In this document: in pieces, positions 10,934-38,902 of the stretch
Layout of the letters: each line of letters starts with the position of its first letter
Position numbering within the stretch: the first letter of the stretch is position 1
Assembly (NCBI GenBank): GCA_026391835.1
Contig: JAPLDF010000075.1
Span: forward strand, 248,001-312,000
Origin: Bacteroidota bacterium
GTDB lineage: Bacteria; Bacteroidota; Bacteroidia; Bacteroidales; FEN-979
Direction: 5' to 3'
DNA: 64,000 nucleotides
Notes under the pieces: model-generated
Databases searched by the model: none
The model's input: the letters and a program-made list of their open reading frames with translations, nothing else
Told to the model about the DNA's origin: nothing
Translations under genes and position numbers: made by a program

Positions 10934-13132
10934 TTAATTCAGGTAAACCTTTGCGTTGTATGTGTTGTCGTTCGTAATCACCCGCACGACATAATAGCCC
11001 TCGGGCAAATCGAAGGTGAACTTATTGAGTTGGATGTTTGCGACCGGCTTGCGCGCAATCTCCTGTCCCATCATGTTGTACAGGTACAGCTGGCCAGCCC
11101 TGGGGTTTCCCGAACGGTCTTTCACATACACATCATGTTTGTACGAATAAACCAGCATGTTATTCTTGCCGGCATCATCGATCCCAAAGTATGGATTCAT
11201 AAAATGCAATAAAAACCGGGCTGGGGCATCACCGTCCGTATAGGTGAAATTATATACCGGGTTTGAAGTCAGCTCCTGTGTTTTTGCCTCTTTTTTGTCT
11301 TCCAGCGTGATGATGGTTCCCGATCTGAAACTCTGCAGGTTGCTGGCAGTTACGGCATAGCTGCCTGTACCGTTCTCAAAAATCTGAAGGTTCAATGGAA
11401 TCGTGGCACTCTTATCTGTATACGGAAGGGAGTTGATGGTGAGATTGACGTTATCCTCACTCAGCGTATATAATTGCGGTGTTTGTGCATCTCCGTATAT
11501 TTTTTGTGCATCATAGGCATCATCATATTTTCGGGTGGCATAATCCCGGAAAACGACGGATGCCAGGTCATAAGACTCCCTCCCATTTCCCTGTGCTTTC
11601 AGGTAGAGGACATCCACGTCATTCGGGGCCTGCGCCTCTTTATAAAAAGGAACCGAGTTATTATGGACACGGGCACTGTTAGGAAAAGTCACCGAAGCGG
11701 AAGCTGCATTGGCATAAACAAAGAACGCCTGCATGGGAGGAATGAATTGCGAACCCGTAGCGCCCGCACCTCCTTTAGGGTAGGCAAGGTAAGTTCCAGA
11801 GGATTTTTCCAGGTACCACACCTTTGAGGCTACATTGGTCCACGCAATCCCGGCTGCTTCTATATCGATAGCGCTGGGATAAGGGTTTCCAACCAGGTTA
11901 TAGCCACCTCCCGTGGTCCCTGTAAGGGCCAGGGGATATGTAGACGCTTCGGTGTTTAACACACCTGTGAAATAATGGTTTGTATGGAAATTGGGACCAA
12001 CAGAACCCTGTTCGCTGATAGCGAACCCTTTCATAACTGTGAGCGGGTAATTCGTCTGGGTGTATTCACTGCTCCAGGCTCCAATGCTGGTGTTATACCA
12101 CCTGAGGTAATCCCCCAGAAACACATTGCTTACCGCACTTGTGAGGGGTGAAGCCACATAATGCCAGCAACTGCTGCCCGTGCTGCCAACGCAGGTGGTC
12201 AGATACCGTTCAACCGTTGCCGAACCGGAATTGGGATAACTGATCGTTCCATTGTCGATAAATGATCCCGCTCCCCCGGCATCCGAAGATATCTTCAATC
12301 CTTCCGCTCCATTGATCTCCGTGTTGCCGGTACAGGTCAAATCCGCCCCGACGTTGATCTTTAACTGTGCCCCGGGATGAATACGGAGGGCAAGTGCCTT
12401 GGAGCCGGTGTTGGTAATTTCAGCTGGGGCTGTACCATAATCCCAAACTGAGGTGTTTACAGCGGTGTTCCAATTTACAGTGCCATCCCATTGAGTCCAT
12501 GGGCCATAACTATGTAAATTAAAAGCAGCTGCACAATAGATTCTACCATAATATATACCGGATAAATTGTTTTCATATGAATTGGGAATATTATATACTG
12601 TATTATAGGGGGGGGTGCTTGATGCTTTAAACTGCTGTCCATCCATACCTGACGAATAGAAACTCATTAATGATTGAGACACATTCGCCGAAGACTGCAA
12701 TGGAATACGAATAGTTCCAAGTACCTGATAAGATGTCGTAATAGCACAATAAGCGTCAGGAAAAGATGGGTCAATTGAATTTGTATGATTAACCGTAATG
12801 TAAAGTCGATTATCTGCCCAATTTCTAGACGAAATTGTGTATTTTGGTGTTAGTCCAAGGTCAGGATCGTCATATTGAGAATTAAAAGGGGCATTCAGAG
12901 TTATTAAAGGAAGAATTGAAGTATTGACATCAGATATATTTATGTCGCAATTTATTTGGGTTCCATATAAGTACGAACCTGATACATCTGCTTTCACTAA
13001 AATATCAAAATAAAAATAGTTATTAGGTGAAATATACCTAAGGTAGGGGTTCGCAAATTTAAAGGTCAATGTCTGTGCTATATTTGAGCCTGTTAGCATA
13101 GCGAAACATAATAAGACAATAAATTTTTTCAT
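10934..13132 (-). CDS. T9SS-secreted surface protein with C-terminal sorting domain
   Basis: 732 aa; signal peptide 1-19 (ending GSNIAQ). Residues about 20-190 form a beta-rich domain (FYFDILVKADVSGSYLYGTQ) that resembles the cohesin-like modules of the neighbours but is more divergent. The centre (about 200-480) has features frequent in Bacteroidota surface proteins: GNPYPSAID motifs, and low-complexity Gly/Ser/Thr. The C-terminus from about 655 is a T9SS type A-like tail (GQLYLYNMMGQEIAR, ending NAKVYLN). AT-richness rises in the first 600 nt (12.5-13.1 kb), unlike the rest of the gene. Probably an adhesin or structural component; no catalytic motif seen. Confidence 0.8.
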   Translation of the reverse strand: MKKFIVLLCFAMLTGSNIAQTLTFKFANPYLRYISPNNYFYFDILVKADVSGSYLYGTQINCDINISDVNTSILPLITLNAPFNSQYDDPDLGLTPKYTISSRNWADNRLYITVNHTNSIDPSFPDAYCAITTSYQVLGTIRIPLQSSANVSQSLMSFYSSGMDGQQFKASSTPPYNTVYNIPNSYENNLSGIYYGRIYCAAAFNLHSYGPWTQWDGTVNWNTAVNTSVWDYGTAPAEITNTGSKALALRIHPGAQLKINVGADLTCTGNTEINGAEGLKISSDAGGAGSFIDNGTISYPNSGSATVERYLTTCVGSTGSSCWHYVASPLTSAVSNVFLGDYLRWYNTSIGAWSSEYTQTNYPLTVMKGFAISEQGSVGPNFHTNHYFTGVLNTEASTYPLALTGTTGGGYNLVGNPYPSAIDIEAAGIAWTNVASKVWYLEKSSGTYLAYPKGGAGATGSQFIPPMQAFFVYANAASASVTFPNSARVHNNSVPFYKEAQAPNDVDVLYLKAQGNGRESYDLASVVFRDYATRKYDDAYDAQKIYGDAQTPQLYTLSEDNVNLTINSLPYTDKSATIPLNLQIFENGTGSYAVTASNLQSFRSGTIITLEDKKEAKTQELTSNPVYNFTYTDGDAPARFLLHFMNPYFGIDDAGKNNMLVYSYKHDVYVKDRSGNPRAGQLYLYNMMGQEIARKPVANIQLNKFTFDLPEGYYVVRVITNDNTYNAKVYLN

Positions 13133-13185
13133 AATATCAGTTTTTATACATTTCCATTAGCAATTTTATCTACTGCAATCCTCTA

Positions 13186-15009
13186 TCAGGGTAGCAAATT
13201 GGTTTTCCCGGAGTTTGGAACCCAATAAGTGTTGACATCATTCAGGTATACACTATTATCCATATTAAAATCACCACGGCTGTATATATGGGTCGATCCG
13301 GAATTTACCACCCAATAAGAGTTAACATCATCAAGGTAGATCCGGTTATCTGCACTCCCGTCACCTGCCCTCAGTCCCCAACGTTCCGGGGATGATTCCA
13401 ATTGAATTGCTCCATTTGATCCGCCATACATCTGGCCACTACCAGATGTAAAGTCATATACATAAATGCCTTCATTATTCTTAGATGCACCCGTTGCTGC
13501 AGCCATAACAGCCATATGATTCCTGTGCCTGATTACGGGGTAAAGGTTCTGAGTTACAGATGCATTATAAAACTTTAAAGGAGTACCGTCCAGATCAACG
13601 ATTGAACCGTCATTTTTTAAGAAAGCAGCCCGTTTGCCGATAATGGTTGCAGCAGTTGCACTGCTTGCTGTTGCAGATTGCCGCAGTTCGATCAATACCC
13701 AGTCAACAACATTTGAAGGCAGGGTTTCCACACTTTCAGTTCCTGCATAATTCCACGGAGATACATTATACGGTTGGTTTTTGGGGAATTTTGTCTGATC
13801 TGACCGATCTCCAAGAGTTAAAGTAGAGGCTAAGGTCGTATTCATATTGTGATTCACTGCCGAATATGGTCCTTGTAAAAAAACATTAAAGGAAGCCTGC
13901 AGCCCCGCCTTTCCCCCCGTAAACGTACTCCAGCTGTTCAGGGTTCCCGAAAGGGTATTTGTTCCTGCGTTGACCGGGTTATAAGAGATCAGTGGGGAGA
14001 CTTTCAATAAAAACAGGTCGGTTTCGGCACCGCCATTGGTTACTACTACGTCGTCATCCACATACTTGAAGGAGGCGGTGCAACTGAAACCTGTAATGGG
14101 GTAAGAGAGATTGTTGTCAACCGTCCAGTAACGTGAGATGTGGGTGCCGGAGGTGATGCCGGGATCAGGCACATTGTCATCAATAACCTTGATGCCGACA
14201 TAATTGCCACCAGGGAAGGTGCCGCTTGCAAAGTCGAGGGTCACAGGGGTAAATTCGGGGGTGCCCGTATTGTCCCCAACCGGGTAGGTGAAACTGTATG
14301 GGGCGGAAGGAAACTCCTTTCGCAGTTCGCCCACCCCGTCTGTAACTACCATGGAGGTGGCGGATCCCCCTGTAACAGTGGCCGCCGGGCCCAGCAACAT
14401 CTGGTTGCCGTCAAGGTATACCAGCCCGTTGTTCAGCTCCAGGCCACCGGTTATTGTTTGGTTCCCTTCAACAAGGTACACCCCCTTTCCTGTATTTTCA
14501 ATTCTTAGGATGCCGAACCTGTTCGTGCCGTGAATCTCCTGGAATGCGGTGGTTGATGTTCCTGAAAACAGCACAATACCGGTTCCCCGGTCAACTTCGG
14601 TGAGATTCTTGTTAATGAAGTTTCCTTTGACGACCAGCGTGCCGAGGACATCGAGGTCACCACCAACAATAATGGCATCACCATTGACATACATGGACTG
14701 GTTGTTTACCACAATTCCTGCCTTTACTACAATACTGTCATAAACAGTGGCTTCGCCATAATTTATCAACGTCCCGTTGGCATCAACGATTGCCCTCGCT
14801 GCAATAAGAATTCCGCGGTTTTCCAGTACCCCGCCAACCAGGTTAGTCGCACCACTATCGATCAATTGCACTGATGGTTTGACGATAAGCGTCGTACCGC
14901 TGTGGATTTCAATCTCGCACCTGGCGGACTGAATTCCCAGAAACAACAGCATGGTTACTAAGCAGGTGGTTGTAAGCCACATTGTTCTTCTGATCGTTGG
15001 AGCTTTCAT
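13186..15009 (-). CDS. Secreted protein with C-terminal dockerin-like domain
   Basis: 607 aa from ATG 15009 (MKAPTIRRTMWL); the longer ATG 15081 lies inside the promoter box and is rejected. Signal peptide ends near IQSARC. The middle carries repeated beta-helix-like patches (VNGDAIIVGGDLDVLGTLVV) and LRKEFPSAPYSFTYPVGDN, frequent in Bacteroidota cell-surface proteins. The last 60 residues hold two calcium-loop-like repeats, DGSADNRIYLDDVNSYW and GDFNMDNSVYLNDVNTYW, spaced like the duplicated EF-hand loops of type I dockerins. No T9SS sorting tail follows (ends GKTNLLP). With cohesin-like modules in the adjacent genes, it is a candidate docking partner. Confidence 0.75.
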   Translation of the reverse strand: MKAPTIRRTMWLTTTCLVTMLLFLGIQSARCEIEIHSGTTLIVKPSVQLIDSGATNLVGGVLENRGILIAARAIVDANGTLINYGEATVYDSIVVKAGIVVNNQSMYVNGDAIIVGGDLDVLGTLVVKGNFINKNLTEVDRGTGIVLFSGTSTTAFQEIHGTNRFGILRIENTGKGVYLVEGNQTITGGLELNNGLVYLDGNQMLLGPAATVTGGSATSMVVTDGVGELRKEFPSAPYSFTYPVGDNTGTPEFTPVTLDFASGTFPGGNYVGIKVIDDNVPDPGITSGTHISRYWTVDNNLSYPITGFSCTASFKYVDDDVVVTNGGAETDLFLLKVSPLISYNPVNAGTNTLSGTLNSWSTFTGGKAGLQASFNVFLQGPYSAVNHNMNTTLASTLTLGDRSDQTKFPKNQPYNVSPWNYAGTESVETLPSNVVDWVLIELRQSATASSATAATIIGKRAAFLKNDGSIVDLDGTPLKFYNASVTQNLYPVIRHRNHMAVMAAATGASKNNEGIYVYDFTSGSGQMYGGSNGAIQLESSPERWGLRAGDGSADNRIYLDDVNSYWVVNSGSTHIYSRGDFNMDNSVYLNDVNTYWVPNSGKTNLLP

Positions 15010-15050
15010 ACGTTGATATGTTTTTTTTGAATTTATAATTTTCAAAAACG

Positions 15051-15081: not shown

Positions 15082-15108
15082 GAAAAAAATAAAAAATCAC
15101 CAGATTCG

Positions 15109-17211
15109 TTAATTTATAATCAATTTAGATATAAAGATACCACTTTCTTCCTGAATTTCAGCAAAATAAATTCCGGGTAACCATTCACTTGCATCAATTT
15201 GCCGCTCATCGCCGGGGAGTTTTTGGTCCCACAAAAACTCCTTGACCACCCTACCCATAGGATTAATAATGCGGATCCTGGTGTCAAGGCAGCCCTCTTC
15301 AGGGCATCTGTAGTATACATTCTCCCTGGCAGGGTTAGGGTAAAGCCTCGCAGGGTTCCTGGCTAATTCACCGGTACCTGTTATGATAATGTCAATAAGG
15401 TTTGATGTATCGGAAGTGCATCCGTTCATGACTATCCTGTCAAAGTAGGAGCCGCTGTGAACCGGCACAAACGATTGAGCGGTTGCTCCCTGGACGGGAA
15501 CCCCATCCAGGTACCACTGGTTGCCGCAACACTGGTTGGAAGAAAGGACATTCCCATTTTGCGATATGACCGGGGTGGCGGGGATTGGCGATACGACAAC
15601 CACGGCTGTCCCTGAGGTCGTTCCGGAACAATTGGCATCGGATGTTGCCAGCAGGGTATAGGTCCCCGGCATAGAGGTGGTCAGCAGGAACGGCGTGGCC
15701 ACCTGGTTTGATACGGTAACAGAGGTCGTGCCATCGGAATAGGTAAATGACCAGGGAGGTGTGCCGGTCAGGGCGATGGCCAGGGTTGTTTCCGAGCCAT
15801 CATCGCAAAGTGAATCGCCTCCCGAAATTGTGGCGGTCGGCAGAGGATAAACTGTAACGTTTGTGGCGTTTGAAACGGCGTTAAACCCGTCGTTCACCAT
15901 CAACAGGTATTGTGTCGAAACGGCAGGTGATACCTGCGGGTTTTGAAGGTTTGAACTCCAGGGAGGAGTCCCGGAAGGGTTGCTGCTCCATTGATAGGAA
16001 TAATTTCCAGATCCCCCGCCGGCATTGGCATAAAGTTGAACTACCTGCCCTGCGCATGCCCCGTTGGGTATTGCGGCAGGGTTCGTACTGAGGGGGCCGC
16101 CGGTGATGGTGACGATCACCTTGCTGCTGTCGTGGCAAAAAGTGGCCTGGTTGGTGACAACGAGGTTGAAAAGCGTGGTGGCGGCCAGTTGTACTGTCTG
16201 CGGGTGCTGAATGTTTGGATTTACCAGCAGTTGTTCCGGCGACCAGTGGTAGGTGTACAAACCTGCCCCGCCCGGGGCGGCATGCAGTGTCGTCCATGTT
16301 CCATATGGGATGGTAGTGTCATTGCCTGCATGCGCTACGGGAAGCGGATGCACGGTTACAGGCAGGAGTGACGCCGGCCCGCTGCCACAGAGGTTAATCC
16401 CATTTACGGAGACATTTCCCGAAACAGCGTTCCCGGTAAAGTCAACTGTGACCGAATTGGTAGTAGAGCCTGTCGTAATGGTCGCCCCTGCGGGTACGGA
16501 CCAGTTATACCCGATGGCATGCAGCAGCGGGGCAACACTGTAAACAACGCCGGATTGTCCCTGGCACACGGCCGCATCTCCCGAAACGGGACCCGGCGCA
16601 TCCAATCCACCACAAATCGCGCCGTTGATATAATAGGAAGCGAGCGGGCTGTCGTTCAGGATGACGGAGGCTCCGGAGGCAAACTGGCAGGAGCCCCCGT
16701 TGTCATACCACTCAAGGCTTGTAACGCCCGAGAGAAAGGTGAACGTGATTGTGAATATGGTGCTGCCGTTGGCAACTGTCACCCCGTTTCCATACCAGCT
16801 GAGGATGATCATGTGTTTGCCGTTTCCAAGGTCGGTGTCGGTGGTACTGAGCGATCCCACCAGCAATGGATTTTTTGTCACCGAAGCATAATGCGCAACC
16901 GCGTAATCATACGCAAGGCTTAATGAAATCGCCCCGATATTGGTAAATCCCGATACCGTTACCGGGACAGCCACCGGGCCCGGCAATGCATTTGCGACCA
17001 TTGCCGCGGTGGTGATGGGGGCATTTTGGGAGATGCTGATAAACGGTGATATAAGGAGGATGAGTATAAACAATGAACAAGACCCCACCCCGGCCCTCCA
17101 ACAGATTCCTAAGCAACATGACCCCACCCCGGCCCTCCCCTTGGAGGGGAGGGAGGCGTTTCGCGTTGATATTTGGGGTGCTTTTTGCATGGGTTGGTCT
17201 GCGGAAAACAT
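15109..17211 (-). CDS. T9SS-secreted protein with one cohesin-like module and Ig-like repeats
   Basis: Up to 700 aa. After a signal-like core (SLFILILLISPFISISQ) comes a cohesin-like module (NAPITTAAMV to ASYYINGAICGG) closely similar to the four modules of the upstream gene, including DNGGSCQ and VILNDSP. PKD/Ig-like repeats follow, then a T9SS tail (LYPNPARENVYY, ending SKLIIN). The start is uncertain: codons upstream of the hydrophobic core are translated CCCTCC/GGAGGG repeat, with ATGs at 17211 and 17190 upstream of it; GTG 17088 would give a normal-length signal peptide (MGSCSLFILILL). I favour the GTG or an altered start caused by repeat insertion. Function: likely surface scaffold or anchoring protein. 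Confidence 0.8.
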   Translation of the reverse strand: MFSADQPMQKAPQISTRNASLPSKGRAGVGSCCLGICWRAGVGSCSLFILILLISPFISISQNAPITTAAMVANALPGPVAVPVTVSGFTNIGAISLSLAYDYAVAHYASVTKNPLLVGSLSTTDTDLGNGKHMIILSWYGNGVTVANGSTIFTITFTFLSGVTSLEWYDNGGSCQFASGASVILNDSPLASYYINGAICGGLDAPGPVSGDAAVCQGQSGVVYSVAPLLHAIGYNWSVPAGATITTGSTTNSVTVDFTGNAVSGNVSVNGINLCGSGPASLLPVTVHPLPVAHAGNDTTIPYGTWTTLHAAPGGAGLYTYHWSPEQLLVNPNIQHPQTVQLAATTLFNLVVTNQATFCHDSSKVIVTITGGPLSTNPAAIPNGACAGQVVQLYANAGGGSGNYSYQWSSNPSGTPPWSSNLQNPQVSPAVSTQYLLMVNDGFNAVSNATNVTVYPLPTATISGGDSLCDDGSETTLAIALTGTPPWSFTYSDGTTSVTVSNQVATPFLLTTSMPGTYTLLATSDANCSGTTSGTAVVVVSPIPATPVISQNGNVLSSNQCCGNQWYLDGVPVQGATAQSFVPVHSGSYFDRIVMNGCTSDTSNLIDIIITGTGELARNPARLYPNPARENVYYRCPEEGCLDTRIRIINPMGRVVKEFLWDQKLPGDERQIDASEWLPGIYFAEIQEESGIFISKLIIN

Positions 17212-17330: not shown

Positions 17331-17339
17331 AATAGCAGA

Positions 17340-20153: not shown

Positions 20154-20203
20154 GTTTCAGTAAGTTTGCATTGTTTGTTCTTTGGCATTCGAAAAGAGAA
20201 AAT

Positions 20204-20233: not shown

Positions 20234-20241
20234 GGTATTAT

Positions 20242-22539: not shown

Positions 22540-22600
22540 ACAGGAATTGATACCTGTAGTTCCAGCATATTTAAGGAGTGGGCTTGATAGTGTAGGAGCA

Positions 22601-29100: not shown

Positions 29101-32100
29101 ACAGCAAGTTAATCGCAGCCCTTGAACCGGTTGGGAAAGTACCTGTAATGGTATTGCCGCTGACTTCCACATTTGTGCCCGCAGTAACGGGTTTTGTGCG
29201 TGAACGTGCGGCGATTTCGATGCCGACTCCAGCGTCACCGGGATCGTCGAAAAGATTTGCCGGTGCATCTATAGCGTTGTCTTTTACCTGTGAGTTGATT
29301 ACATTGGTCAGCTCTATGCCGGCATATTTGAATTTTTCCAGCTTGTTTTTCTGGATCAGCCAGTCTGACTGTACCACCATATTTGAAGAGGTGTTGTTCT
29401 CACTGCCGACAAGGATGCCATTATACGCCACATCATGTATATAGTTATTCTGAACAATGACATTCGATGCACCTGTTGTATTGCTATTCATACAATAGGA
29501 AGAAATTGCATTGCCGTCTCCATTGGAACCCGATCCGGAATAATTTCTGATCTCAAATCCATCAATAGTGACATTGGAGACTCCGTTTGCTATCATGATG
29601 GCATCATATGGAGCACCTGGCAAGCCAGTGCCATCAAGGATGGTTTCACCGGTAAATGTACGTGTACGTGCATCCACTCCCGTTTTTGCACCATTCAATG
29701 TAAGACTCTTTGTGACATTAACTTTTTCATGGAAAGTTCCCGCTTCAACATTAACGATATTGGTGGCTGATGCAGCATTAACTGCACGCTGGATCGTTTC
29801 GTCGCTTGGCCCTGTTGATGGGGCAGACACATACAAATTTGTGTTATTGTAACGAACAAGTCCGGAGGCTGCATTGTCAAGGGCGTCATAGATATGATCG
29901 GCGATGCGGAAATTGTTAGCCAAATCAAACTGATCTGCGCTGATATTGAGTGGATTAGGTCCCTGGTTATCTACATACCAAGTATCACCTGCAAACTGGT
30001 TTCCGCCACTGCTTGTCACAGTTCCTGTAAGGATCTGTAAGTCGGTAGTATTATCGTTTGCATCATCGAAGTCATTGTTGGACAGTATTGCTTTTCCGTT
30101 AGATTGAATTAGTATACCCGTTCTGTTACCATTTATTATATTTCCGGTCATATGTACAGGAGAGGCAGTGCTGAAGTCTCCACCTGAATACCATTGGAAC
30201 CCAATGTTTGCACCTTTTGTCGTATTGCCCGAATATGTTACAGTACTCGTCGAACCTGAATGAGATGTGATACGATAAGCCCGCTGGATGTTCAAAGCGG
30301 GATTGTTTCCTCCTGCCAGGTTCAGAAATTGATTTCCACTGATGGTAATATTACTGCTATGAGCCCATCCGTTCTCCCATATCCCGAGAATAAGTTCCGG
30401 ATTTGTTGATTGTGCATTAAGAATGTTTATGGTATTGCCTGTAATCTGTAATCCGTCATACAAATCTCCGCCACTGGTATTCGACTGCATCCCGACAGAA
30501 ACCGAATAGTTTGTGCCATTACTTTCGCCATTGCCAGGGATATCAATAGTGTTGTTTGATATTGTCTGGTTCTTGCCAAATGCAAAATGGATTCCTATAT
30601 TCTGACCGGCATCGTCAGGAGCTGCGATGGCATTCAGGTCAGTAGCTATCCGGATATGGTTGTTTGTAATTGTATTGTTTTGGAATGCATCGGAGCCTCC
30701 ACTCCCGTAAAATTCGGCGATCGCCAGGTCAAAATCAAAGATTTCTAGGTTGGAGATTGTCCAGTTTTGATTGTCTCCTCCATAAAACACCAATACGCCT
30801 TCCATGTCAATTACAGATAAGTCACCCGGGCCCTGAATGGTTGCATTGCCAAGGCCTTCGGGTGCAGTAAATGTCACACCGTTGAGGTTGGCCGGAACCA
30901 GGAGCCAATAGTCATCAAGATTCCCTGGTATGTCATCATTACCAAGTGCCCATGATGTTGCTGCATTGGTCTCACTCCAGTTGAAAGTGCCATGAAGGTT
31001 AATATTCCAGTTGTTTGATACAATTCCAATGGCATTTCTGAGGCGTGTGTAATCATTATTGGTTGCAGTGGGTGTGGTGATATCGGTGACAAATGCATTG
31101 TTGGCCTTGATCATGACAAATCCCAAAGAATTGTCATCAATCCTGTGCGTGATCTTATTCTCAGCGGCAAAATTCTGAGCAAATGTCATACCTGCGCCTG
31201 TTTTTGTATCAAAGAAGGAACCGGTTGCATCGAGGATCTGCCCTGTAAGTGCATTCCCGGAAAGTGTAATGTAATCTCCGGTCTGACCTGAGAATGAAAG
31301 GTTGTTGATGTTATTGCCGCTGAATGCTGCATGATTCCCATTGACAAGCAATCCTGTTGTTCCATTGCTTAAGGTGGTGGCTGTTGCTATGTTCAGGGTT
31401 TGTATTGTAGATGATGTATGGCTAGCATCCAATTTTATGCCTGCACCGCTTGCGGCAGATGTTATTGAAATACCGCTGATATTAACTGTTGACGCTGCAT
31501 GCTGTGCATTCAGGTCTGATGTGCCAACCGGGTTAAAAGTCAGGTTATCGGTCAGGAGTACACCTGCAATCTTTGTTCCCGTAATGGTGTTTGTAGATCC
31601 GAGGGTTATTGTTCCTGAAGTAGGGACATTTGCCATACCGATGCCATAATCGGTTCCTGTTATCGTATTGTTGGTAAATGTTGGCGTAACCGCATCCTGC
31701 AAGGTAACAACCAGTATCCCAAAGTTGTTGGCAACTGCTCCTGTTTCTGCATAAAACTGGTTGTTGTTGACTGTCAATGGAGTTGCCTGGTTAAAGTTCA
31801 ACCAGTATGCCAATCCGGTGGCATAACTGTGAACTTCATTACCCGTGAAATTGAAGTTAGCAGGTCCGCCCAACCCATTATGGTTATTGATGTGGGCACC
31901 GGTCCATACTTTTGTCATCTTATTGTTGGTAATGTCTGCGTAATAATTGTCACGGATGCTGACAGCATACCCCCAGTCATAATTCCCGATTTCGTCAAAC
32001 CAGTTCTGATTTACAACGTTCCCGGCAGATGCATGGCCTGATCCCCGTATGCCCATAAATGCGCGTTGCATAATGTTGTTCGAAACATTGAGGTTGTTGC

Positions 32101-35100
32101 CGGTGGCCATTTGCTGAACAAGGTATGACACGTTTGCATCTGCACCGCTTGCAACCGGAGCACTGGTTACAACAGGATCATCACCGTTTAAAGTAAACCC
32201 GTCAATTGTTACATTGCTACCGGTCACATTGAAAAGTGAAGTTTTTGCGCCGTTTGTTTGAACTGTGGATTCAGCGTTGGGCCTGGTACTTCTTGCATCT
32301 TGACCAAAGTTTGAACCTTTAATTGTTATACTTTTATCAATCAATGGATTTTCGACATAGGTGCCTGCATCCACCCAGATAACATCACCAGGGCTTGCAA
32401 CGCTTACTGCATGTGCAATTGTAGCAAATGGCGACGTTTGCGTGCCAAGATTTGCATCATTTCCGATTGCTGTTGTGTAATGATCGCCAGCCGGGTATCC
32501 GTCATTTACATAAAGTTCAGTGATTGTTGCACATGGGTCAGCGGGTTGAAATCCGTTAGCCGGGTTATTTCCCAAATCATTTCCTCCCGTCAGATATGGG
32601 GTGTATGTCGCGTTGCCGGAGACTTTACCAGCTACCAGCGTTGATGCTATTACGCCATACCAGTTGCAAGTCGCTGCGATGGTTTGAATCGAATTATTAT
32701 TGATAGCCTTTACCGCATTACCAGATAAATCATTGTTATTAATGCCACCAATAGTACCGGCATCCAATGCAATTTGGATTCCGTCTCCTGTATTGTTTGT
32801 GATAAAGTTTTCGGTGCAGGATACCAGGTTGCCTCCTGTTGAAACTTTAACCCCGGTGCCATTTGCAGTGATATTGTTCTGGTAAACGGTAGCGCTGGAA
32901 TTGTTGGTAATATCTATCCCAACCGCATTCCCGGTGATGGTGGATGTGTTTTGATTGATATCAGCCGAAGCATTATTCCCGCTAAGTAAAATACCGGAAG
33001 GGGTGATACTGTTGCCGTTAATTGTTGAGTTGGTTATATCAAGATGTGCTGTCAACGGTCCGCCGGCATCGACATCCTCGACGTATACTCCTCCAATTGT
33101 TGAGGACAGGATATTCATCCCGCTGATTGTTGCTGCAACTTTGGCATCTCCCCAGGTAGCATCATGGGTGCTTGCAAGCACTCCATATTTGCCTCCGGTT
33201 ATTGTGCCTCCATTGACGGTAAGAACATCCGGGTAGCAATCAAATATCTTGATGCCATAATAACCCGCTGTAACATCATTGCCTGAAATAATAGAACCTG
33301 CAGCTGTGTGCAGTCCTACAAAGTACATCCCGATATTGTTCGGCAGGAATCCAGGGTCACTTGTTGCCGCGATAAAATCATTGTCGCTTATTGTAAATAC
33401 GCTGGAACCTGAGCGCATATCATTGTACTGCAAGCCCAACTTGTCATAATGAACCTCATTGTGGCTGATCAATGATGGCGTTCCTGATTCATAGAATGCC
33501 TGCGTCTGGATGCAGGAGAGACATTGCGACAACTTGTTGTTAGTGATGTCAGCATAGTAGTTATAGGAGATGGAAATTCCCCAATCGGAATTGTCGGTCA
33601 CATTGTAGGAAATTGGTCCGCCAAGGACGGTTGGAGTACCCTGGCAGAAGATAGCCGTACCCCTGACATTTTTGACAATATTGAATTTAGCAGTCAGGCC
33701 GGCATTTCCAATGCCGTAACCATACCAGTCACCGTTGTTGATACCCATCCAGGCATTGACATCGGCTCCGTTCTGGGCATAGCCACCTCCGATGATGGTA
33801 TTGTCACCATCTATCGTGAAGCCGTTGATGGTAACATTTGCTGCACCCACATTCACCACATTTCCATAGAGTGAACTATTCGTAGCGGGAACAATGATTG
33901 CCTCGCCACCACTTCTGCCTGATCTCGGATCAACATTAGCTTGGGGGCCAAGAAGGGTGAGGGTTTTATTGATGTCAACATTTTCAGTGTAATCTCCGGC
34001 TCTAACCTCAACCGTATTGGCGGCACCGGCTGCAATGAAGTTCACTCCCTGTGTAATTGTCGGGAATGCATCATAACCAACGTAAATGCCGGACGGCGGG
34101 GTAATTTCATCTCCAGGTACTTTTCCGATAGCAAAATCGTCATCTACCAATGCATACGTTGGGATACCAATTGTGAAATCAGAAGAAGCACTTTCAAAAC
34201 CTCCCGGAGGCGGGGCCGGATTGTAAACCGTGACCGGGATGGTCGCAACAGATGCGACAAGCGATGCGTCAATTAAAGCTGTAAGATGTTGACTATCCAC
34301 AAATGTTGTCGTCAGGTCACTGCCATTCCATCTGATTACACTGGTTGAAACGAATTTTGTACCAGTAACAGTCAAGGTAAAGGTCGGATAGCCTTTTGCA
34401 ATCTTGAATGGTTTCAACGAAGAAATTGTTGGCTCTTCATTGTTTACGATAAATGAACTGCTTATTGCATCGGTAAGGCTGTTGAAGCCAGAATGGCCTT
34501 TTAAGGTGTAAACGCCTCCCGGAGTTATTGACAAATCACTAAAGGTGACAACGCCATTGGCAGCATTTTGCACCTGTGTTCCAGATAGAGTACCTGACCC
34601 GCTGTTGATGGAAGCTGTAATCTGGCAATCGGTATTTGATGATCCATAATTGAAGTTATACCCAAGATTTTCATTAGCATCGCGGGCTTCAAGAACCGGT
34701 TGTGCATTCAGTGATGCACCTGCATTCTGGCCGGTTTGACCGGGTTGGGTGGTATAGACTAGTTTGGTAGGTATCGCATACTTGGGACTCGCACCCATTG
34801 TAACGGCAGAATACCAGGGACTGAAGTCAACATTATTGCTCACGGCATTTCCTCTTTCTGAAGGAACACCTGCGCCATACCCTGCATTGGTTGCATGTTC
34901 AGGGCCACGGATATTTCCCCACCAGTTGGATTCGGCGTTCATCATGGTTGCCGTAAGGTTATTAACTCCATAATTCGTATTGCCGTATATTTTATTATTG
35001 GTGAGGGTGATGGTTCCTCCGTCAGCAACCTTGACACCGGTTCCATTCGAATAAAGTTCATTTCCAGTCAATGTTGTAATGACTGTTGCATTGCCTTTGA

Positions 35101-38100
35101 CCACGGAGACTCCGGTTTCATATCCGTTAATGTTATTATTTGTCAGTTGGGCTTGCACAGTTCCGTTATCACTATCAAACGGAGCTGAACTCGACATATG
35201 GATACCGCGGGATCCTGTATAGGTTGACGGAACTGTAATCTGGTTGTTCTGCACCAGGTGGGTCTGAATGGGGGCAATGTCTAAATTATACAAATAAATG
35301 CCATCCATTACCCCTGAAATCTGGTTTCCGTCAAGCGTAACAAGTCCTGTTGCATATTGCAGGATAATTCCTTCGGTGCCTCCGGTAATTATATTTCCAG
35401 TGGCATCACTGCCGCCTTTCAAACCACACATGTACAGTGCAGTCCCATCCACATCCACATTATTTCCGGAAATAGACACAACCCCGGCAGTCGATTGTCC
35501 AATAGCATAATTCGTCATGATCCCGGTTCCACAACCGGAAATCTGGTTGTTTGTAACGGTTGCATCACAATCAAATAATCCCACGGCAGGCCCGCTGATC
35601 AAAGGATCCGAACCCACACCTGTAAACTGGCAGTTATCAACAAGGTTACCTGTAGAAGTAGCAGTTTTGGGACGTAGGTCAATTCCACGCCTGTATATAT
35701 TCTCGATATCGACATTTTGGATGGTCGTATTATTGTAGTTGCCCAGGTTCACATCTGAAATTACTGCATTTCTGAAGTTCTGAACCCCGGCAAGTCCGTT
35801 ATCCTCATTACCGTCTAGGGTCATGGTGGTGATTATTACATTTGAGGAGCGGATAATAAATCCGTTGGATGCGCTGGTAAACCGATCATCGATATGTCCA
35901 TCAACCATGCCTGGACCGAGTATCATCCCTGTTCTGCTTTGTCCCTGGAATGTCAGGTTTTTGGTCACAGGAATATTGGATTCGTTATAAATACCATTGA
36001 CCGCAGTGATCATACCTCCTGCAGTTGTTCCTGCTTCAGCATCAGTAAAGTTGATATAATATTCAACCGGGCTGTCATTATTTGTTATTGGTGCAAAGAG
36101 TGAACCTCCAGGATAGATACCATCAAGCCAACGGATAAATGAGACAGTTCCAACAACAGCGTTGCCTTGTGCAGCCATGTTGAAAACATTTTTGGAATTT
36201 GCCGGTCCGTTGATTGTGCCCCACCAATTTGAAGTGGCAGCAACGCTTGCTGTAGTAAGATTGACAACACCACCATAAGCACTGCCATCGCTACCCGTGT
36301 AGGTTTTATTATTGCTATAGATGTTGCAATTCTCAATGACTACATTCGTTGGTGTCGTATTATTTTTACCTGGTTCACCAAGGCGAATTCCGCGTTCGTT
36401 GCCATTGATTGTACATCCTGTAATAATAACATTGTCCAACGTTGCAGGAAACGAAGCATATCCGGTATCGCCTCCTGTTCCACGGGCTTTAACTGCAATT
36501 GCAACTCCTTCTTTCGAATGGCCTGTTCCTAGACCGTTTCCAGTGAATGAACAACCAGTAAACGCAATATTTTGATACGTACCGGCTTTCAGGTTAAAAT
36601 CGATACCAGTCATCCATGTTGCACAATCAGGATGAGAATATTGGCCATTGTTATCTATTGTACAGGTAGTAAAATCAGCATCCTCCATTTTTTCGGCATA
36701 AATTCCTTTATATCCATTATTGTCAAAATGGGAGGATGTTACTGATACAAATTGCACTGTGCTCGTTTCATTGCTTACCTCTTTATCAAAGTACCAGCCA
36801 TATGACAGGTAATCGAAGTGACAGTTGACTACTGTCAGATGTGCCAGGCTGCTTGTGTGATCAACGTAAAGTCCCCGTTCATTCTCAGTACATGGTGATG
36901 CACCGGAACCAATAATGCATACATTGTCCAACTTTAGATAGCTTACATTTCTGTTGGCAGCACCCATAAATATTCCGATGGATATCCCTGCAGTTTGGTT
37001 TACTGATATGCGAAGATCTTTGATGAGTAAAGGATCTACATCCGATATACCTGATCCCCTAAGCTGAATGGCTCCATTTGTCGGGTTGGTAGAGGCGGTG
37101 ATGATAGTGCCACTGGTACCGCTTCCCGCACCTATCAATGAAACTTTTTTAGTAATGGTCAGGAGTTCATTATATGTCCCGGCAGCGATATTTACCGTTC
37201 CGCCGCTACCCAACTCAATTCTGTCAATCCCGTCCTGTATCTTATCGAAAGCATAGCATCCCCATCCGGGCGTTCCTGAGTTATAGGTTGCATCGACATA
37301 AACTGTCGTCTCAAGGGTGCTGATGGTCACTGTAGCGCAATTGTCACTCCAGGCAGCCGCGCAATCCGGGCTGCCGGTCGGATCAATCTTGCAACGGTAC
37401 ATCGTTGTTTCCAGAACGTTTGTTGGCGTATATGAATTTGACTGGGCTCCGGTGATTATGGTCCAGTCCCCATCTGTACTGCTGCAGGTTCCGATATCCG
37501 AAGTCTTTTTATACCATTGGTAACTGAATGTACCAGTTGCTCCTGCAGGAGATACGCTCAATGTAGCTGCATTGAAATTATAGCAGATGGATTGTGTGGC
37601 ATTCGAAATGTTCCCGGGAATGAATGTCGGCAGTTCTGTAACTAAAACTGCATCAGATGTAAGTGGAGTGCACCCGGCACCTGATGCGGAATTTATCACG
37701 CAATGATAATATGTCGCACTATTCGGAGATGATACAGTTGTAAATGAAGGGGAATTTGAACCTGTATTGGTCCACGGACCTGAATTGCCTGGTCCGGATT
37801 GCCATTGATAGTTGTATGGTGCAACACCTCCATTCACAGTGACATTCATGTTGTGCGTAGTGCCTGCACAAATGGTGGCACCTGAAGGTTGGGTTCCTAT
37901 TTCGAAATCATTGACAACCTGCCAGGAGACCAGGGTTTGGGGAGAAGTGCTGGAGCATCCTGAGCCACTTGTGCATCCATCGGTCCATGCCTGGATTTCA
38001 ACATCGGTGATTCCTGAGGTAGCAATTGAATTACCGGGTGTATATGCCTGCCAAGAGCCCCAGAGCCCGCCCGTTTTCGTGCGATACTCATAATGATCGG

Positions 38101-38902
38101 TGCAGCCGACGCCGCCTGTACTGGCAAGAAAAGTTGCGGATACACTGGTAGGAGTGCAAACTTTGTCAAGATTCGGTGTCTTTTGATTCAAAGTGGGGCC
38201 TGAAGGTTGGGCCACAATAGCCCAGGAGTGTACATTTTGTGCATCATCACATCCGTAGGCGGTACATCCGCCTCTTTTTGCACGAATTTCAACACCTGTT
38301 TTCCCACCAGTTGATATCGTATTTGTCGGTGTATATAACGTCCAACCTCCCCAGGTGTCCCCTGTTTTGGTTCGGTATTCATAGCTGTCTGCACAAGAAA
38401 CTCCGCCGCTGCCTGCTGTGGTTATTGATGCTGACACTGCTGTGCCATCGCATACAGTTGCCAATGCAGGCGATTTAGTCATCACAGGAGCAGTGGGATC
38501 ACTTACCACAATCACCTCAAATGTCATGTCCGGGTCATCATCTGTAACATCGCGAACAGCATATGTTATCCCGGTAGTCTCGGATGAATAAGTCATCGGA
38601 TCGAATGCGATATTTCCGTCTGAAGAAGGAGTTATTTCCTGAATAGTCGTGGCGGGCAAAGGTGATGTTTTCCTTAACCTGTATTTATGACTGCCTGTGG
38701 CATTGTCAATATGGACAGTCACACTTCCTCCGACACACAGGTGAACCTTTTGACTGCCATCCCATGCCGGCGAGGTATAAACCGTCTCCGTTTGCCCAAA
38801 AGTTACCTTGGCAATCATGGTTAAGACAAGAACAAATGCCATCAAAACCGGCACTTTTAAATTATTCAAGAGAGATCCTGAAACAGTGTAATTTTTTTTC
38901 AT
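23003..38902 (-). CDS. Giant multi-beta-helix adhesin (N-terminal 5299 aa of a ~6200-codon gene)
   Basis: Signal peptide 1-36 (KVTFGQ). Ig/PKD-like repeats with paired Cys fill about 40-530 (EYRTKTG..W motifs). Then come about seven right-handed parallel beta-helix modules, starting near 534, 948, 1584, 2130, 3020, 3450 and 4215; several open with YVND...GNDANPGT..PFATI followed by IIWVDAGTYVEN and most end with an N-W-(W/Y)-G motif (TSNWWG, ESNWWG, TCNWYG, TCNWWG, SPNWWG). HYR modules close this part. The ORF ends by frameshift at 23003 inside tandem HYR copies; the C-terminal T9SS tail is in the ORF at 20242-22539. Likely a fibrous surface adhesin or glycan-binding protein. No pectate-lyase catalytic residues could be assigned. 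Whether the gene is intact in the cell depends on those repeats. Confidence 0.85.
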   Translation of the reverse strand: MKKNYTVSGSLLNNLKVPVLMAFVLVLTMIAKVTFGQTETVYTSPAWDGSQKVHLCVGGSVTVHIDNATGSHKYRLRKTSPLPATTIQEITPSSDGNIAFDPMTYSSETTGITYAVRDVTDDDPDMTFEVIVVSDPTAPVMTKSPALATVCDGTAVSASITTAGSGGVSCADSYEYRTKTGDTWGGWTLYTPTNTISTGGKTGVEIRAKRGGCTAYGCDDAQNVHSWAIVAQPSGPTLNQKTPNLDKVCTPTSVSATFLASTGGVGCTDHYEYRTKTGGLWGSWQAYTPGNSIATSGITDVEIQAWTDGCTSGSGCSSTSPQTLVSWQVVNDFEIGTQPSGATICAGTTHNMNVTVNGGVAPYNYQWQSGPGNSGPWTNTGSNSPSFTTVSSPNSATYYHCVINSASGAGCTPLTSDAVLVTELPTFIPGNISNATQSICYNFNAATLSVSPAGATGTFSYQWYKKTSDIGTCSSTDGDWTIITGAQSNSYTPTNVLETTMYRCKIDPTGSPDCAAAWSDNCATVTISTLETTVYVDATYNSGTPGWGCYAFDKIQDGIDRIELGSGGTVNIAAGTYNELLTITKKVSLIGAGSGTSGTIITASTNPTNGAIQLRGSGISDVDPLLIKDLRISVNQTAGISIGIFMGAANRNVSYLKLDNVCIIGSGASPCTENERGLYVDHTSSLAHLTVVNCHFDYLSYGWYFDKEVSNETSTVQFVSVTSSHFDNNGYKGIYAEKMEDADFTTCTIDNNGQYSHPDCATWMTGIDFNLKAGTYQNIAFTGCSFTGNGLGTGHSKEGVAIAVKARGTGGDTGYASFPATLDNVIITGCTINGNERGIRLGEPGKNNTTPTNVVIENCNIYSNNKTYTGSDGSAYGGVVNLTTASVAATSNWWGTINGPANSKNVFNMAAQGNAVVGTVSFIRWLDGIYPGGSLFAPITNNDSPVEYYINFTDAEAGTTAGGMITAVNGIYNESNIPVTKNLTFQGQSRTGMILGPGMVDGHIDDRFTSASNGFIIRSSNVIITTMTLDGNEDNGLAGVQNFRNAVISDVNLGNYNNTTIQNVDIENIYRRGIDLRPKTATSTGNLVDNCQFTGVGSDPLISGPAVGLFDCDATVTNNQISGCGTGIMTNYAIGQSTAGVVSISGNNVDVDGTALYMCGLKGGSDATGNIITGGTEGIILQYATGLVTLDGNQISGVMDGIYLYNLDIAPIQTHLVQNNQITVPSTYTGSRGIHMSSSAPFDSDNGTVQAQLTNNNINGYETGVSVVKGNATVITTLTGNELYSNGTGVKVADGGTITLTNNKIYGNTNYGVNNLTATMMNAESNWWGNIRGPEHATNAGYGAGVPSERGNAVSNNVDFSPWYSAVTMGASPKYAIPTKLVYTTQPGQTGQNAGASLNAQPVLEARDANENLGYNFNYGSSNTDCQITASINSGSGTLSGTQVQNAANGVVTFSDLSITPGGVYTLKGHSGFNSLTDAISSSFIVNNEEPTISSLKPFKIAKGYPTFTLTVTGTKFVSTSVIRWNGSDLTTTFVDSQHLTALIDASLVASVATIPVTVYNPAPPPGGFESASSDFTIGIPTYALVDDDFAIGKVPGDEITPPSGIYVGYDAFPTITQGVNFIAAGAANTVEVRAGDYTENVDINKTLTLLGPQANVDPRSGRSGGEAIIVPATNSSLYGNVVNVGAANVTINGFTIDGDNTIIGGGYAQNGADVNAWMGINNGDWYGYGIGNAGLTAKFNIVKNVRGTAIFCQGTPTVLGGPISYNVTDNSDWGISISYNYYADITNNKLSQCLSCIQTQAFYESGTPSLISHNEVHYDKLGLQYNDMRSGSSVFTISDNDFIAATSDPGFLPNNIGMYFVGLHTAAGSIISGNDVTAGYYGIKIFDCYPDVLTVNGGTITGGKYGVLASTHDATWGDAKVAATISGMNILSSTIGGVYVEDVDAGGPLTAHLDITNSTINGNSITPSGILLSGNNASADINQNTSTITGNAVGIDITNNSSATVYQNNITANGTGVKVSTGGNLVSCTENFITNNTGDGIQIALDAGTIGGINNNDLSGNAVKAINNNSIQTIAATCNWYGVIASTLVAGKVSGNATYTPYLTGGNDLGNNPANGFQPADPCATITELYVNDGYPAGDHYTTAIGNDANLGTQTSPFATIAHAVSVASPGDVIWVDAGTYVENPLIDKSITIKGSNFGQDARSTRPNAESTVQTNGAKTSLFNVTGSNVTIDGFTLNGDDPVVTSAPVASGADANVSYLVQQMATGNNLNVSNNIMQRAFMGIRGSGHASAGNVVNQNWFDEIGNYDWGYAVSIRDNYYADITNNKMTKVWTGAHINNHNGLGGPANFNFTGNEVHSYATGLAYWLNFNQATPLTVNNNQFYAETGAVANNFGILVVTLQDAVTPTFTNNTITGTDYGIGMANVPTSGTITLGSTNTITGTKIAGVLLTDNLTFNPVGTSDLNAQHAASTVNISGISITSAASGAGIKLDASHTSSTIQTLNIATATTLSNGTTGLLVNGNHAAFSGNNINNLSFSGQTGDYITLSGNALTGQILDATGSFFDTKTGAGMTFAQNFAAENKITHRIDDNSLGFVMIKANNAFVTDITTPTATNNDYTRLRNAIGIVSNNWNINLHGTFNWSETNAATSWALGNDDIPGNLDDYWLLVPANLNGVTFTAPEGLGNATIQGPGDLSVIDMEGVLVFYGGDNQNWTISNLEIFDFDLAIAEFYGSGGSDAFQNNTITNNHIRIATDLNAIAAPDDAGQNIGIHFAFGKNQTISNNTIDIPGNGESNGTNYSVSVGMQSNTSGGDLYDGLQITGNTINILNAQSTNPELILGIWENGWAHSSNITISGNQFLNLAGGNNPALNIQRAYRITSHSGSTSTVTYSGNTTKGANIGFQWYSGGDFSTASPVHMTGNIINGNRTGILIQSNGKAILSNNDFDDANDNTTDLQILTGTVTSSGGNQFAGDTWYVDNQGPNPLNISADQFDLANNFRIADHIYDALDNAASGLVRYNNTNLYVSAPSTGPSDETIQRAVNAASATNIVNVEAGTFHEKVNVTKSLTLNGAKTGVDARTRTFTGETILDGTGLPGAPYDAIMIANGVSNVTIDGFEIRNYSGSGSNGDGNAISSYCMNSNTTGASNVIVQNNYIHDVAYNGILVGSENNTSSNMVVQSDWLIQKNKLEKFKYAGIELTNVINSQVKDNAIDAPANLFDDPGDAGVGIEIAARSRTKPVTAGTNVEVSGNTITGTFPTGSRAAINLLSRSYLSTSDAALSGVTVNANSITGATNVRSAVLAVSESRSGSPSTISTLAITNNYLDGNLDAVDIQDYINGGTGPATHSGISVANNDIINSTQIGIHVLPSTSATGILANNNNIQTNSLFGAKNEGSGTLDATCNWWGTVGSGGIEALISGPVTYSPYLLIGLDDEPLVPGFQQVTPSCGVATELYVNDNDRTGDHYTSAVGNDANPGTALLPFRTIQQAIDVASTNDIIWVDAGTYAEDLFLYKTLNLRGSNYTVDPNNSSPPRFAEAILDPATSDPDPTSTTSTTMLYMNNDASGSSVKGFTFDGDNPLLTSLVNMNGANVDACEAIAAYEGLSNVKIGNNILKNINYSGIDLYNYYNSGAATTGNVISNNKFDNILPNAWGMGIVIYNNCYTNITDNVMTRVRIGIQTGNFSQADPGGTSHSITENAIESKRLGIFHNLAYSGATTFDISNNDITTYSGSTNNIGIEISSIQTAVGANVSGNNVTGALEGIDLWNCPTTNTVTVTGGTLTNCTTGVFPNNYDGYDSDAATSTYTITGVTLNNCGTGVWVRDNSLNTNGATVTAEVKNLTINNLTATGISITGSDAGANIHNNNIAAAAVGINVDGVSTTAPNGLTIQNNTIAIAAKLAGSTPTVGIALGNISGTQPALIGTNDISVAYLGYLIYNLNTVPATTITGGNITNVVQGVSAVNANPLGTGAFAPSNFVLDGQVISGFTGSYAHTGVYIFTGNGSSNTDIITANINNVTVDGTGNSSADCAGFNFADFSTNIGTRQDITVTQCLLENNRNRGINVRGKNAVVNVNASTLTGNGKDAYGTGGNNGYGIVSFKGATVNVANCFITNPSTSTTPVSALFSFQFESYGGTIIATNNSLNRNNNGYLASNAGGTLTATCNWWGSANPDAVYAVMNPASTPPVNYVHYLVDGTDVGGISADGFQPVSGACTGPNEFYVNDTYSGIGLGSERWCTAAGNDANPGVKAAPLATITKALSLAADNDIIYVDYGNYVENVIVNKKVEIRGSNFDADPNVAWSYGEAVLKPANNNASAGVLMELAQSGTIIKGLVFDGNKPGTDVGTDVNGIDVNTSVGIQNGSIGGTMAAFGQHWIDHLTITYNKFRNFTLQGIYIFDQFGTSYSWNYLNNNNFDNMKEGIQVYAFHALINDNKMTGVNRGISTHSVNTPAASGFTPDIARNDISISWAYTATSRAVGIWNNYQRENASPLSVHNNTIRFPEETPSGSTSIGFYALSMDNERVANYTNNTIIGGGNCNWGFYASGVASHNVTIQGGSLGNIKDYGVRVANWDPVWGGQIGGDARVNVNNVAITMAPGGVGVIAYSDVIHTFIASAAVTNNCSISGGAKGVLADGPTSSVTVTNNATTISGNLVGIDIKNGACLVSCTGNTITSNTQAGILIESTAGIIGAIENNTISGNGNSFDATHGRGLQNDKTAAVDASPNWWGDATGPYNDPHNTCGVGNAVFGNITFNPWYSDGTMATLYTLPLPALSSCTSPINLNQHDDRDPYATGTPTVTTCYGPNTLTYSDNRAGLTGCNATGTIIRTWTVTDYFGNMNTCVQNIVITDNQNPVVTCPDNITKNTDPGLCTAVTTFNPTATDFGFFQGFENPLWISGGSDKQQSTDWNDANSTITRVTSLGPIIPNPPSTAFGLLSSTGLPTGQLGAYSRLGGYYNKFDSGFVTRLDVYFDLSDPGISANTYAWEVSSAVSNQATPNAGFLRDFVFHTAGYSTGKILVAASNNASNARRNDLATVNHYEVTTSGWYTLEWNYYGAPDGALSVDCSLLDAGGNKLWTEIRHTASDLISNVVGGNRYMWFTFLAVNNLAIDNTSLTRKPIVTSVPASGMAFAKGTTTVTSTANICGRSDVCTFNVNVNDNEAPKITTCPAAYGIEGCSTDAITELIFSATTVEVSAQFFTDAGGVASDNCAVTYYAYKDVSSGTCPITVTRTWTVKDAAGKTATCDQVITIHDLTAPAFTQCPAAYDIEGCSTAAITGLMYQISETEVTALQFTNVPVVLQQMLAA

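Follow-up and report, generated by a model that had tools for sequence, protein, structure and literature searches.

A probable cohesin-dockerin surface scaffold with a split-loop X-dockerin among type IX secretion cargo of a Bacteroidota bacterium

The window analyzed here is a 64,000-nucleotide stretch of a Bacteroidota genome (G000:C86:248001-312000; assembly GCA_026391835.1, 5.35 Mb in 86 contigs, completeness 96.7%), the minus strand of which carries six large open reading frames (ORFs) between positions 10934 and 38902. Several of these encode cohesin-like and dockerin-like modules together with sorting tails of the type IX secretion system (T9SS), whose core is present in the genome (SprA, TIGR04189, 2597 bits). 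We conclude that region 15109-38902, at the core of this cluster, is probably one copy of a reiterated, T9SS-delivered, calcium-dependent cohesin-dockerin surface scaffold, with adhesin-like cargo here. A first-pass annotation of the window had proposed both a surface scaffold and a pairing between the dockerin-like tail of the 13186 protein and the four cohesin modules encoded at 17340; its modules were confirmed and the scaffold is supported as probable, whereas the pairing found no support. Proteins are named by the lower coordinate of their ORF (Table 1). ORFs were defined by the longest frame, the genomes compared are drafts, and the custom profiles were trained in part on the same loci that they annotate.

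Cohesins and the X-dockerin of the window

The modules of the 17340 and 15109 genes are genuine cohesins. The 17340 protein scores 99.5 bits over four stretches against Pfam Cohesin (PF00963, cut-off 24.1 bits), in keeping with the four tandem modules first noted there. The single module of the 15109 protein, which had been described as very similar, also exceeds this cut-off (E 1.8e-7) and shares 51% identity with module 1 of the tandem set. AlphaFold2, given an alignment of the five window modules only, modeled cohesin 1 with a predicted local distance difference test score (pLDDT) of 83.4 and a predicted template modeling score (pTM) of 0.80. The 35 best PDB matches of this model in Foldseek are cohesins or cohesin-containing chains by entry title (best E 3.7e-8), so that cohesin 1, the one module of the cluster covered by the fold model, has the cohesin jelly roll that the annotation expected.

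The 17340 protein has a signal peptide, recognized by eye, and a weak NIDO-like stretch (Pfam NIDO E 0.012), and no T9SS tail was found in it by Pfam, NCBIfam or a custom tail profile. Its C-terminus (KTN-TVTIQ-NIIVNG) is probably a module of its own, because a Lac Pavin Bacteroidetes metagenome-assembled genome (L027:3406-11128) encodes in tandem a 1298-aa and a 1273-aa protein that have an end of this kind but no detected cohesins. In the 15109 protein, about 40 residues ahead of the signal peptide resemble, by eye, a translated intergenic repeat (SLPSKGRAGVGS...), and the true start probably lies further inside the ORF. The sorting tails listed by the first-pass annotation vary in strength. 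Those of the 1.1- and 15.1-kb products pass both Pfam and NCBIfam, that of the 10.9-kb product passes NCBIfam (30.8 against 23 bits) and fails Pfam (14.6 against 27 bits), and that of the 20.2-kb product misses the Pfam cut-off, has no NCBIfam Por_Secre_tail match and is found by the custom tail profile. The 13.2- and 17.3-kb products show no tail, as had been stated.

The X-dockerin of the cluster lies in ORF 20242-22539. A dockerin-like loop and a cohesin-like domain had been seen here and assigned to the C-terminus of a giant beta-helix protein; the modules are real, and a profile built from six X-dockerin sequences (A1) shows an X-module, a dockerin and a cohesin, but they are located in this separate ORF and not in the giant one. 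Against the PDB, A1 matches the type I dockerin 4dh2_B (E 1.9e-7), the cohesin 2xdh_A (E 1.5e-5) and SdrD 10ps_A (E 2.5e-6), the last of which is also matched by profile A3 (E 3.5e-10). A3 aligns across both the X-module and the dockerin of 4wi0_B (8e-5), 4u3s_B (1.5e-4), 2b59_B and 3kcp_A, with E values ranging to 0.008, and thus describes an X-module directly ahead of a dockerin, homologous to the cellulosomal X-dockerin. The cohesin-like module that follows in the same chain (in cis) has another in-cis cohesin as its nearest relative. It does not reach the PF00963 cut-off, and neither does the module at 2808 in the outlying 1095-4280 protein, where a further cohesin-like module had been claimed and the match is weak (19.7 bits; hhalign probability 56%).

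The giant ORF itself, scanned with Pfam over 4966 residues, shows six Beta_helix stretches (E 1.7e-14) as well as DUF1565 and terminates within a HYR-like repeat ahead of the dockerin. HYR-like coding continues beyond it across frame shifts at ~23040 and ~22740, in a new frame each time. Both shifts lie inside a tandem repeat, and since its period of 284 bp is not a multiple of 3, either the duplication itself or its assembly breaks the gene. ORFs 23003-38902 and 20242-22539 are probably one gene, split by this repeat. Genes of giant size do exist, as a relative (G016:C167) has a 6196-aa open frame with a cohesin and an X-dockerin.

The dockerin of this ORF is arranged unusually. In the window, the distal half of loop 1 (21301-21321) is followed by loop 2 (21199-21237), and the proximal half of loop 1, GDFSGNY, is displaced to 21001-21021. 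Among 66 distinct modules, 65 are readable by pattern as a distal half of loop 1 and then loop 2, and in none of these 65 does the proximal half lie directly upstream, so that, of the two contiguous 12-residue calcium loops of Pfam Dockerin_1 (PF00404), only loop 2 is found unbroken. The module closes with GDx[N/S] in 63 of the 66 and with a GDxxGS variant in the other three, and the eight X-dockerin proteins that are tail-less terminate 9 to 13 residues past the start of this closing motif. The Dockerin_1 match starts at profile position 8-11 in ten X-dockerin proteins. Within the genome of the window (the source genome) it starts at 8, 8 and 10 in three X-dockerins, another weak match spans positions 1-19 only, and dockerins outside the X-dockerin profile (C19, C86:368246) start at position 2. 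The Dockerin_1 cut-off of 22.9 bits was passed by six of nine X-dockerin proteins scanned, which were picked for moderate length from the 33 baits described below.

Shifting the end stretch ahead of loop 1 in silico raised Dockerin_1 scores from 32.8 to 46.1, 27.1 to 42.0, 27.6 to 40.8 and 24.0 to 37.4 bits and brought the window module from no match to 11.4 bits; all five then span profile positions 2 to 54-56. Because the stretch was placed where it was expected to help and no shuffled control was used, these gains speak for a likeness to the missing half and are not proof of structure. The similarity of the two halves is 0.34 within modules and 0.21 between them (15 non-redundant modules, with the regular expression off-register in several, the window's included).

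By these patterns, calcium loop 1 of the X-dockerin is without its first half, and a matching half-loop stands at the end of the module, resembling a circular permutation. We propose only tentatively that the X-dockerin is naturally circularly permuted, the loop 1 site being closed by the returning C-terminal end, and that this clasp carries tail-less proteins via T9SS, or catches them at the surface, as passengers of tailed cohesin or dockerin partners. If true, this split-loop arrangement would add a new topology to the dockerins and might provide an orthogonal pair for protein engineering. Neither a permuted dockerin nor an X-dockerin-cohesin T9SS cassette in Bacteroidota was found in the open-licence PMC articles searched, and earlier notice is possible.

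Gene order and linkage in relatives

The cluster has counterparts both within the source genome and among its relatives. Pfam finds 28 cohesin matches in the source genome at E<=0.1, of which seven lie below the cut-off or, with neighbors, marginally above it, alongside six X-dockerins, several of them within gene clusters. Such clusters sit on contigs C5, C15, C19, C72, C73 and C86. On contig C15, a 2201-aa protein (L018:6802-13407) combines four cohesins with an SLH domain and RHS repeats and adjoins a tailed X-dockerin protein; a cohesin-attached RHS protein would be unusual. Window-type cohesins were detected in 30 of 61 genomes (source genome and relatives, E<=1e-6), comprising 18/19 of the genus, 10/18 from other genera of the family and 2/24 from other families of the order, and are carried by 28 of the 37 family genomes searched. 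The X-dockerin is present in 27 of 43 family genomes by profile search. Its profile matched 108 of 345 phylum genomes at E<=1e-5, many of the listed matches being short and covering the X-module only, and exceeded 100 bits in seven genomes besides the source genome. Among the 37 family genomes searched for both, cohesins occur in 27/27 with an X-dockerin and 1/10 without, a difference to which cohesins in the same protein may contribute. A separate single-cohesin family of 1488-1769 aa was seen in three genomes of the genus (L020:6204-11489, L037:3325-8634, L047:8247-12713); no T9SS tail was found in it, and neither a cohesin gene nor an X-dockerin gene directly adjoins it.

In 20 stretches chosen for their cohesins, one gene order recurs: a protein with X-dockerin, cohesin and tail, then a tail-less protein with one to four cohesins, then a tailed single-cohesin protein, usually of ~665 aa (for example L031, L037, L038, L039 and L040, and across L028/L029). 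Comparison of 196 cohesin modules shows that the best match of an in-cis cohesin is an in-cis cohesin of a different locus in 49/50 cases, and that modules of four-cohesin proteins have their best cross-locus match at their own position in 47/56. Since both the in-cis type and the four positions are conserved, the scaffold is probably old, with each cohesin position kept.

Linkage was measured around 33 X-dockerin baits (each fourth row of the match list to row 134, counted by hand; G035:C91:240, outside its stretch, was omitted) and 35 high-scoring T9SS-tail genes from six genomes as controls, hand-picked from the upper part of their list and hence not random. At least two visible neighbors were needed, which removed four baits and one control. 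A cohesin gene lies within two genes of 18/29 baits and 1/34 controls (p 2e-7), and immediately downstream on the same strand in 16/26 and 0/34 (p 4e-8). As the profiles derive partly from cohesin-chosen loci, this full test is biased toward cohesins; without those loci the counts are 11/22 and 1/34 (p 4e-5).

With a single control in 34 adjoining a cohesin gene, the linkage does not reflect generic clustering of T9SS cargo. This bears on a rival reading that we regard as unlikely, in which the modules serve T9SS adhesins as structural beta-sandwich and calcium-binding spacers without binding one another, and their adjacency stems from adhesin gene clustering and duplication. The in-cis arrangement speaks for spacers. 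Of 63 X-dockerin proteins with a complete C-terminus, 53 continue into a cohesin-like stretch and a tail (47 cohesins by profile, six inferred by length only from ~235 unassigned aa plus tail); this in-cis type is the distinct one described above, and 11/29 baits have no cohesin neighbor. Two proteins continue into other long sequence and eight end at the X-dockerin. Seven of these eight tail-less proteins, four of which look like two orthologous pairs (L017/L071, L021/L069), have a tailed cohesin gene within two genes, and this finding, like the one-to-one retention of four separate cohesin positions, argues against mere spacers.

Several observations nonetheless weigh against the scaffold. 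Besides the baits that lack a cohesin neighbor, the linkage is 13/29 when neighbors that are themselves X-dockerin proteins are set aside, and 6/22 in the restricted set (p 0.012). Cohesin proteins scored tail-less have an X-dockerin gene within two genes in 20/24 cases and immediately upstream in 17/24, at least one of the 24 (L069, 666 aa) probably having a missed tail; tailed cohesin proteins are near X-dockerin genes equally often (30/35, immediately upstream 11/35). Nearness alone is therefore no proof of an exchange between tail-less and tailed proteins, and what sets the tail-less cohesin proteins apart is that they stand directly behind an X-dockerin gene. Cohesins outnumber X-dockerins in the source genome, and the in-cis cohesins may indeed be spacers. 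The window X-dockerin is the most degenerate of the five modules tested by permutation, with natively no Pfam dockerin match and with a loop 2 that exceeds the usual length by one residue. Finally, the scaffold model does not account for the passage of the tail-less 17340 protein across the outer membrane; the protein may ride with a partner or be captured outside.

From the modules, the one cohesin fold, the gene order and the linkage statistics we infer binding, a need for calcium, a surface location and an array function for the proposed scaffold. The giant beta-helix/HYR protein would be exported and anchored by its T9SS tail, with the X-dockerin and in-cis cohesin near the anchored end. 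The four-cohesin 17340 protein, which has a signal peptide, would be held at the surface by clasping X-dockerins, and the 15109 protein would add one cohesin, anchored through its own tail. Calcium-requiring binding would then link the large adhesin-like stalks into an array. The tail-less 13186 protein would probably dock by its symmetric dockerin-like end, in an independent pair with the 10934 protein. With such a scaffold, T9SS bacteria could combine tailed with tail-less parts into modular surface complexes, and it makes testable whether a tail-less protein reaches the surface by docking to a tailed one.

A cellulosome-like multienzyme complex, in which a scaffoldin gathers dockerin-bearing hydrolases, seems quite improbable here. 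The relatives' cassette is fused to peptidases (M14 in two proteins, C25 and M28) in four of the nine X-dockerin proteins scanned, and a precedent exists in Candidatus Stygibacter; against this, Pfam found no catalytic domain and no carbohydrate-binding module (CBM) in the 10934-38902 proteins, the 17340 protein included (333 residues of the giant lie outside the scan), and no catalytic domain in the X-dockerin hosts L022, L028, L037 and L040, and the adjoining GH31 enzyme (7859-10261) shows no dockerin. The hosts scanned in the window and the source genome are adhesin-like, with beta-helix, HYR, PKD and kelch domains. Because these hosts are adhesin-like and the relatives' cassette follows peptidases, a general surface-assembly system with interchangeable cargo is favored over a cellulosome.

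The 13186/10934 pair and other features

The two-loop dockerin-like C-terminus reported for the 13186 protein holds up. Both D-x-x-x-D...D loops are complete and contiguous, and D1, D5 and D12 are invariant in nine aligned homologues, an alignment that omits L115, L117, L118 and L119 of the 13 known to us (the first loop of L115 starts with N). Matches to PDB profiles are weak (best E 0.005), and eight of the nine best are dockerin-bearing cellulosomal proteins by name. Pfam finds no family in the 13186 protein at E<=1, and no T9SS tail was found in it; within its family, Dockerin_1 matches two of nine members weakly (best E 0.017). AlphaFold2 gave an uninformative pLDDT of 35 for the last 237 residues alone. 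Elsewhere in the source genome, the four proteins that match the 13186 protein most strongly share its middle domain; three look T9SS-tailed by eye, and one leaves the stretch.

Of the readings that we considered, docking of this tail to the four cohesin modules of 17340 is the least probable. The genes stand in a same-strand row, two loops are present, and the tail is the only one of its kind found in the genome besides one chance-level match. Across the family, however, where 14 of 43 genomes have a tail of this type, it shows no association with cohesins: among the 37 genomes searched for both, cohesins occur in 10/14 with the tail and 18/23 without (p = 0.70), leaving four genomes that carry the tail without detected cohesins. 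Its constant neighbor is instead the 10934 gene, a homologue of which lies immediately downstream in 12/12 loci (those fetched of 14 places outside the source genome, some stretches being short), in L118 without the N-terminal part. Cohesin genes are in the stretch at two of the 12 (L115 and L118). Two tandem 10934 homologues follow the dockerin-like gene at L112, L113 and L116. The 13186 and 10934 genes are a second, independent pair, separate from the cohesin cluster, and the X-dockerin of 20242-22539 appears the likelier dockerin for the cohesins of the window.

By position only, the N-terminal domain of the 10934 protein is a candidate partner of the 13186 tail. The divergence correlation between the two across 10 loci (0.30, against 0.36 for the core) shows no excess and lends this domain no support either. 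Pfam Cohesin matched one of 12 members of its family (E 0.037). We do not claim the domain as a cohesin, given an hhalign probability of 0.2% and no PDB match at E<=10.

The halves of the 13186-type tail are on average 70% identical within a protein and 22% between proteins (12 of 13 proteins, L118 omitted; segments set by hand). In 11/12, half 1 finds its best match in half 2 of the same protein, and none of 20000 permutations reaches the mean. Identical residues of the two halves use the same codon in 74/142 cases, where 67 are expected from codon usage, and recent duplication or gene conversion was rejected on this count as the main cause of the symmetry; sharing exceeds expectation in L110 (10 against 6.8) and L111 (12 against 7.1). 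As shared codons are little above expectation, the halves seem to stay alike through selection and not through recent copying, and their likeness would fit a two-faced binder. Symmetric tails of this type, alike in their two faces despite diverged codons, thus point to a two-sided interaction under selection, the partner of which is worth finding.

Two further stretches of the window were noted. Region 46906-51771, of low G+C content (34-42%), encodes an N6/N4 DNA methylase and two GmrSD-type proteins and is a possible restriction or defence island. Region 59936-62929 encodes an [FeFe]-hydrogenase large subunit with a NuoG-like N-terminus and adjoins a NuoF-like protein, together likely an NAD-linked hydrogenase.

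Table 1. Features of the cohesin-dockerin cluster and neighboring genes in the window
Feature	Position	Strand	Evidence
Outlying BNR protein with T9SS tail and possible cohesin-like module (2808-3083)	1095..4280	+	Pfam, hhalign
Partner gene of the pair: protein with diverged N-terminal domain and T9SS tail	10934..13132	-	Adjacency; NCBIfam Por_Secre_tail 30.8 bits
First gene of separate conserved pair: tail-less protein ending in symmetric two-loop dockerin-like module	13186..15009	-	Adjacency, alignment, PDB profile
Two-loop dockerin-like module	13189..13383	-	D1/D5/D12 invariant in 9 aligned; halves alike within protein
Protein with one cohesin, a PKD-like domain and a T9SS tail	15109..17211	-	Pfam Cohesin 31.9, PKD_6, Por_Secre_tail 37.3 bits
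Cohesin of 15109-17211 protein	16609..17025	-	Custom profile
Tail-less scaffoldin-like protein, 937 aa	17340..20153	-	Pfam Cohesin x4, E 2.5e-28
Cohesin 4	18396..18800	-	Custom profile
Cohesin 3	18804..19226	-	Custom profile
Cohesin 2	19230..19682	-	Custom profile
Cohesin 1	19686..20087	-	Custom profile, AlphaFold2 model, Foldseek
Probable C-terminal part of giant: HYR, PKD-like, X-module, dockerin, cohesin-like module, T9SS tail	20242..22539	-	Pfam, A1 profile vs PDB, custom profiles
T9SS type A sorting tail, weak	20245..20505	-	Custom profile; Pfam 15.8 bits (cut-off 27)
In-cis cohesin-like module between dockerin and T9SS tail	20524..20958	-	Custom profile; A1 match to 2xdh_A (E 1.5e-5) here
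Split-loop dockerin	20989..21327	-	Alignment A3, census of 66 modules, Pfam native vs permuted
X-module (SdrD_B / carboxypeptidase-regulatory-like)	21328..21528	-	Pfam SdrD_B and CarboxypepD_reg below cut-off; A1 and A3 profiles match SdrD
Tandem repeat (period 284 bp, 2.4 copies) within HYR-like coding sequence	22594..23258	-	Repeat and frame analysis
N-terminal and main part (5299-aa ORF) of giant secreted right-handed beta-helix protein	23003..38902	-	Pfam; signal peptide by eye

Comparison with known systems

Among PDB sequences, the cohesin profile matches best to 2xdh, a non-cellulosomal cohesin of Archaeoglobus fulgidus (E 6.3e-5), which ranks 20 among the fold matches; being archaeal, it offers no parallel in T9SS or gene context. 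The Planctosome of freshwater Planctomycetes, a non-canonical cellulosome-like structure as cited in PMC8542988, belongs to another phylum and is likened here by description, not sequence. Single-cell genomes from the cockroach gut, in the excerpts of PMC10266427, hold PF00404 in Alistipes, Bacteroides and Bacteroidales, and cohesin PF00963 is named there for one Christensenellales genome only. Dockerin matches are thus shared with those Bacteroidota, and no cohesin-dockerin gene clusters were found in these excerpts.

The clostridial type II cohesin and X-dockerin likewise place an X-module and then a dockerin opposite cohesins, and A3 aligns with their structures 4wi0_B, 4u3s_B, 2b59_B and 3kcp_A. 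Their X-module is described in PMC5141474 as resembling the Ig-like module of carboxypeptidase D, and Pfam suggests the same carboxypeptidase-type likeness for the X-module here. Unlike the clostridial system, ours uses T9SS and not a Gram-positive envelope, splits loop 1 between the ends of the module, usually places a cohesin and a sorting tail after the dockerin in the same chain, and has adhesin-like cargo in the window.

The closest case found is Candidatus Stygibacter (Cloacimonadota), so that a T9SS-tailed scaffoldin is already published for that phylum (PMC8542988). According to that paper, a 3755-aa scaffoldin bears tandem cohesins, CBMs and a T9SS-type C-terminal domain, and the dockerin-bearing enzymes include gingipain-like C25 peptidases. 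Tandem cohesins, T9SS-type C-terminal domains and C25 hosts are shared with the present system, the last of these in the relatives. In contrast to the one scaffoldin described there, the system reported here comprises several small clusters, with tail-less scaffoldins, tailed dockerin proteins and X-dockerin-cohesin cassettes.

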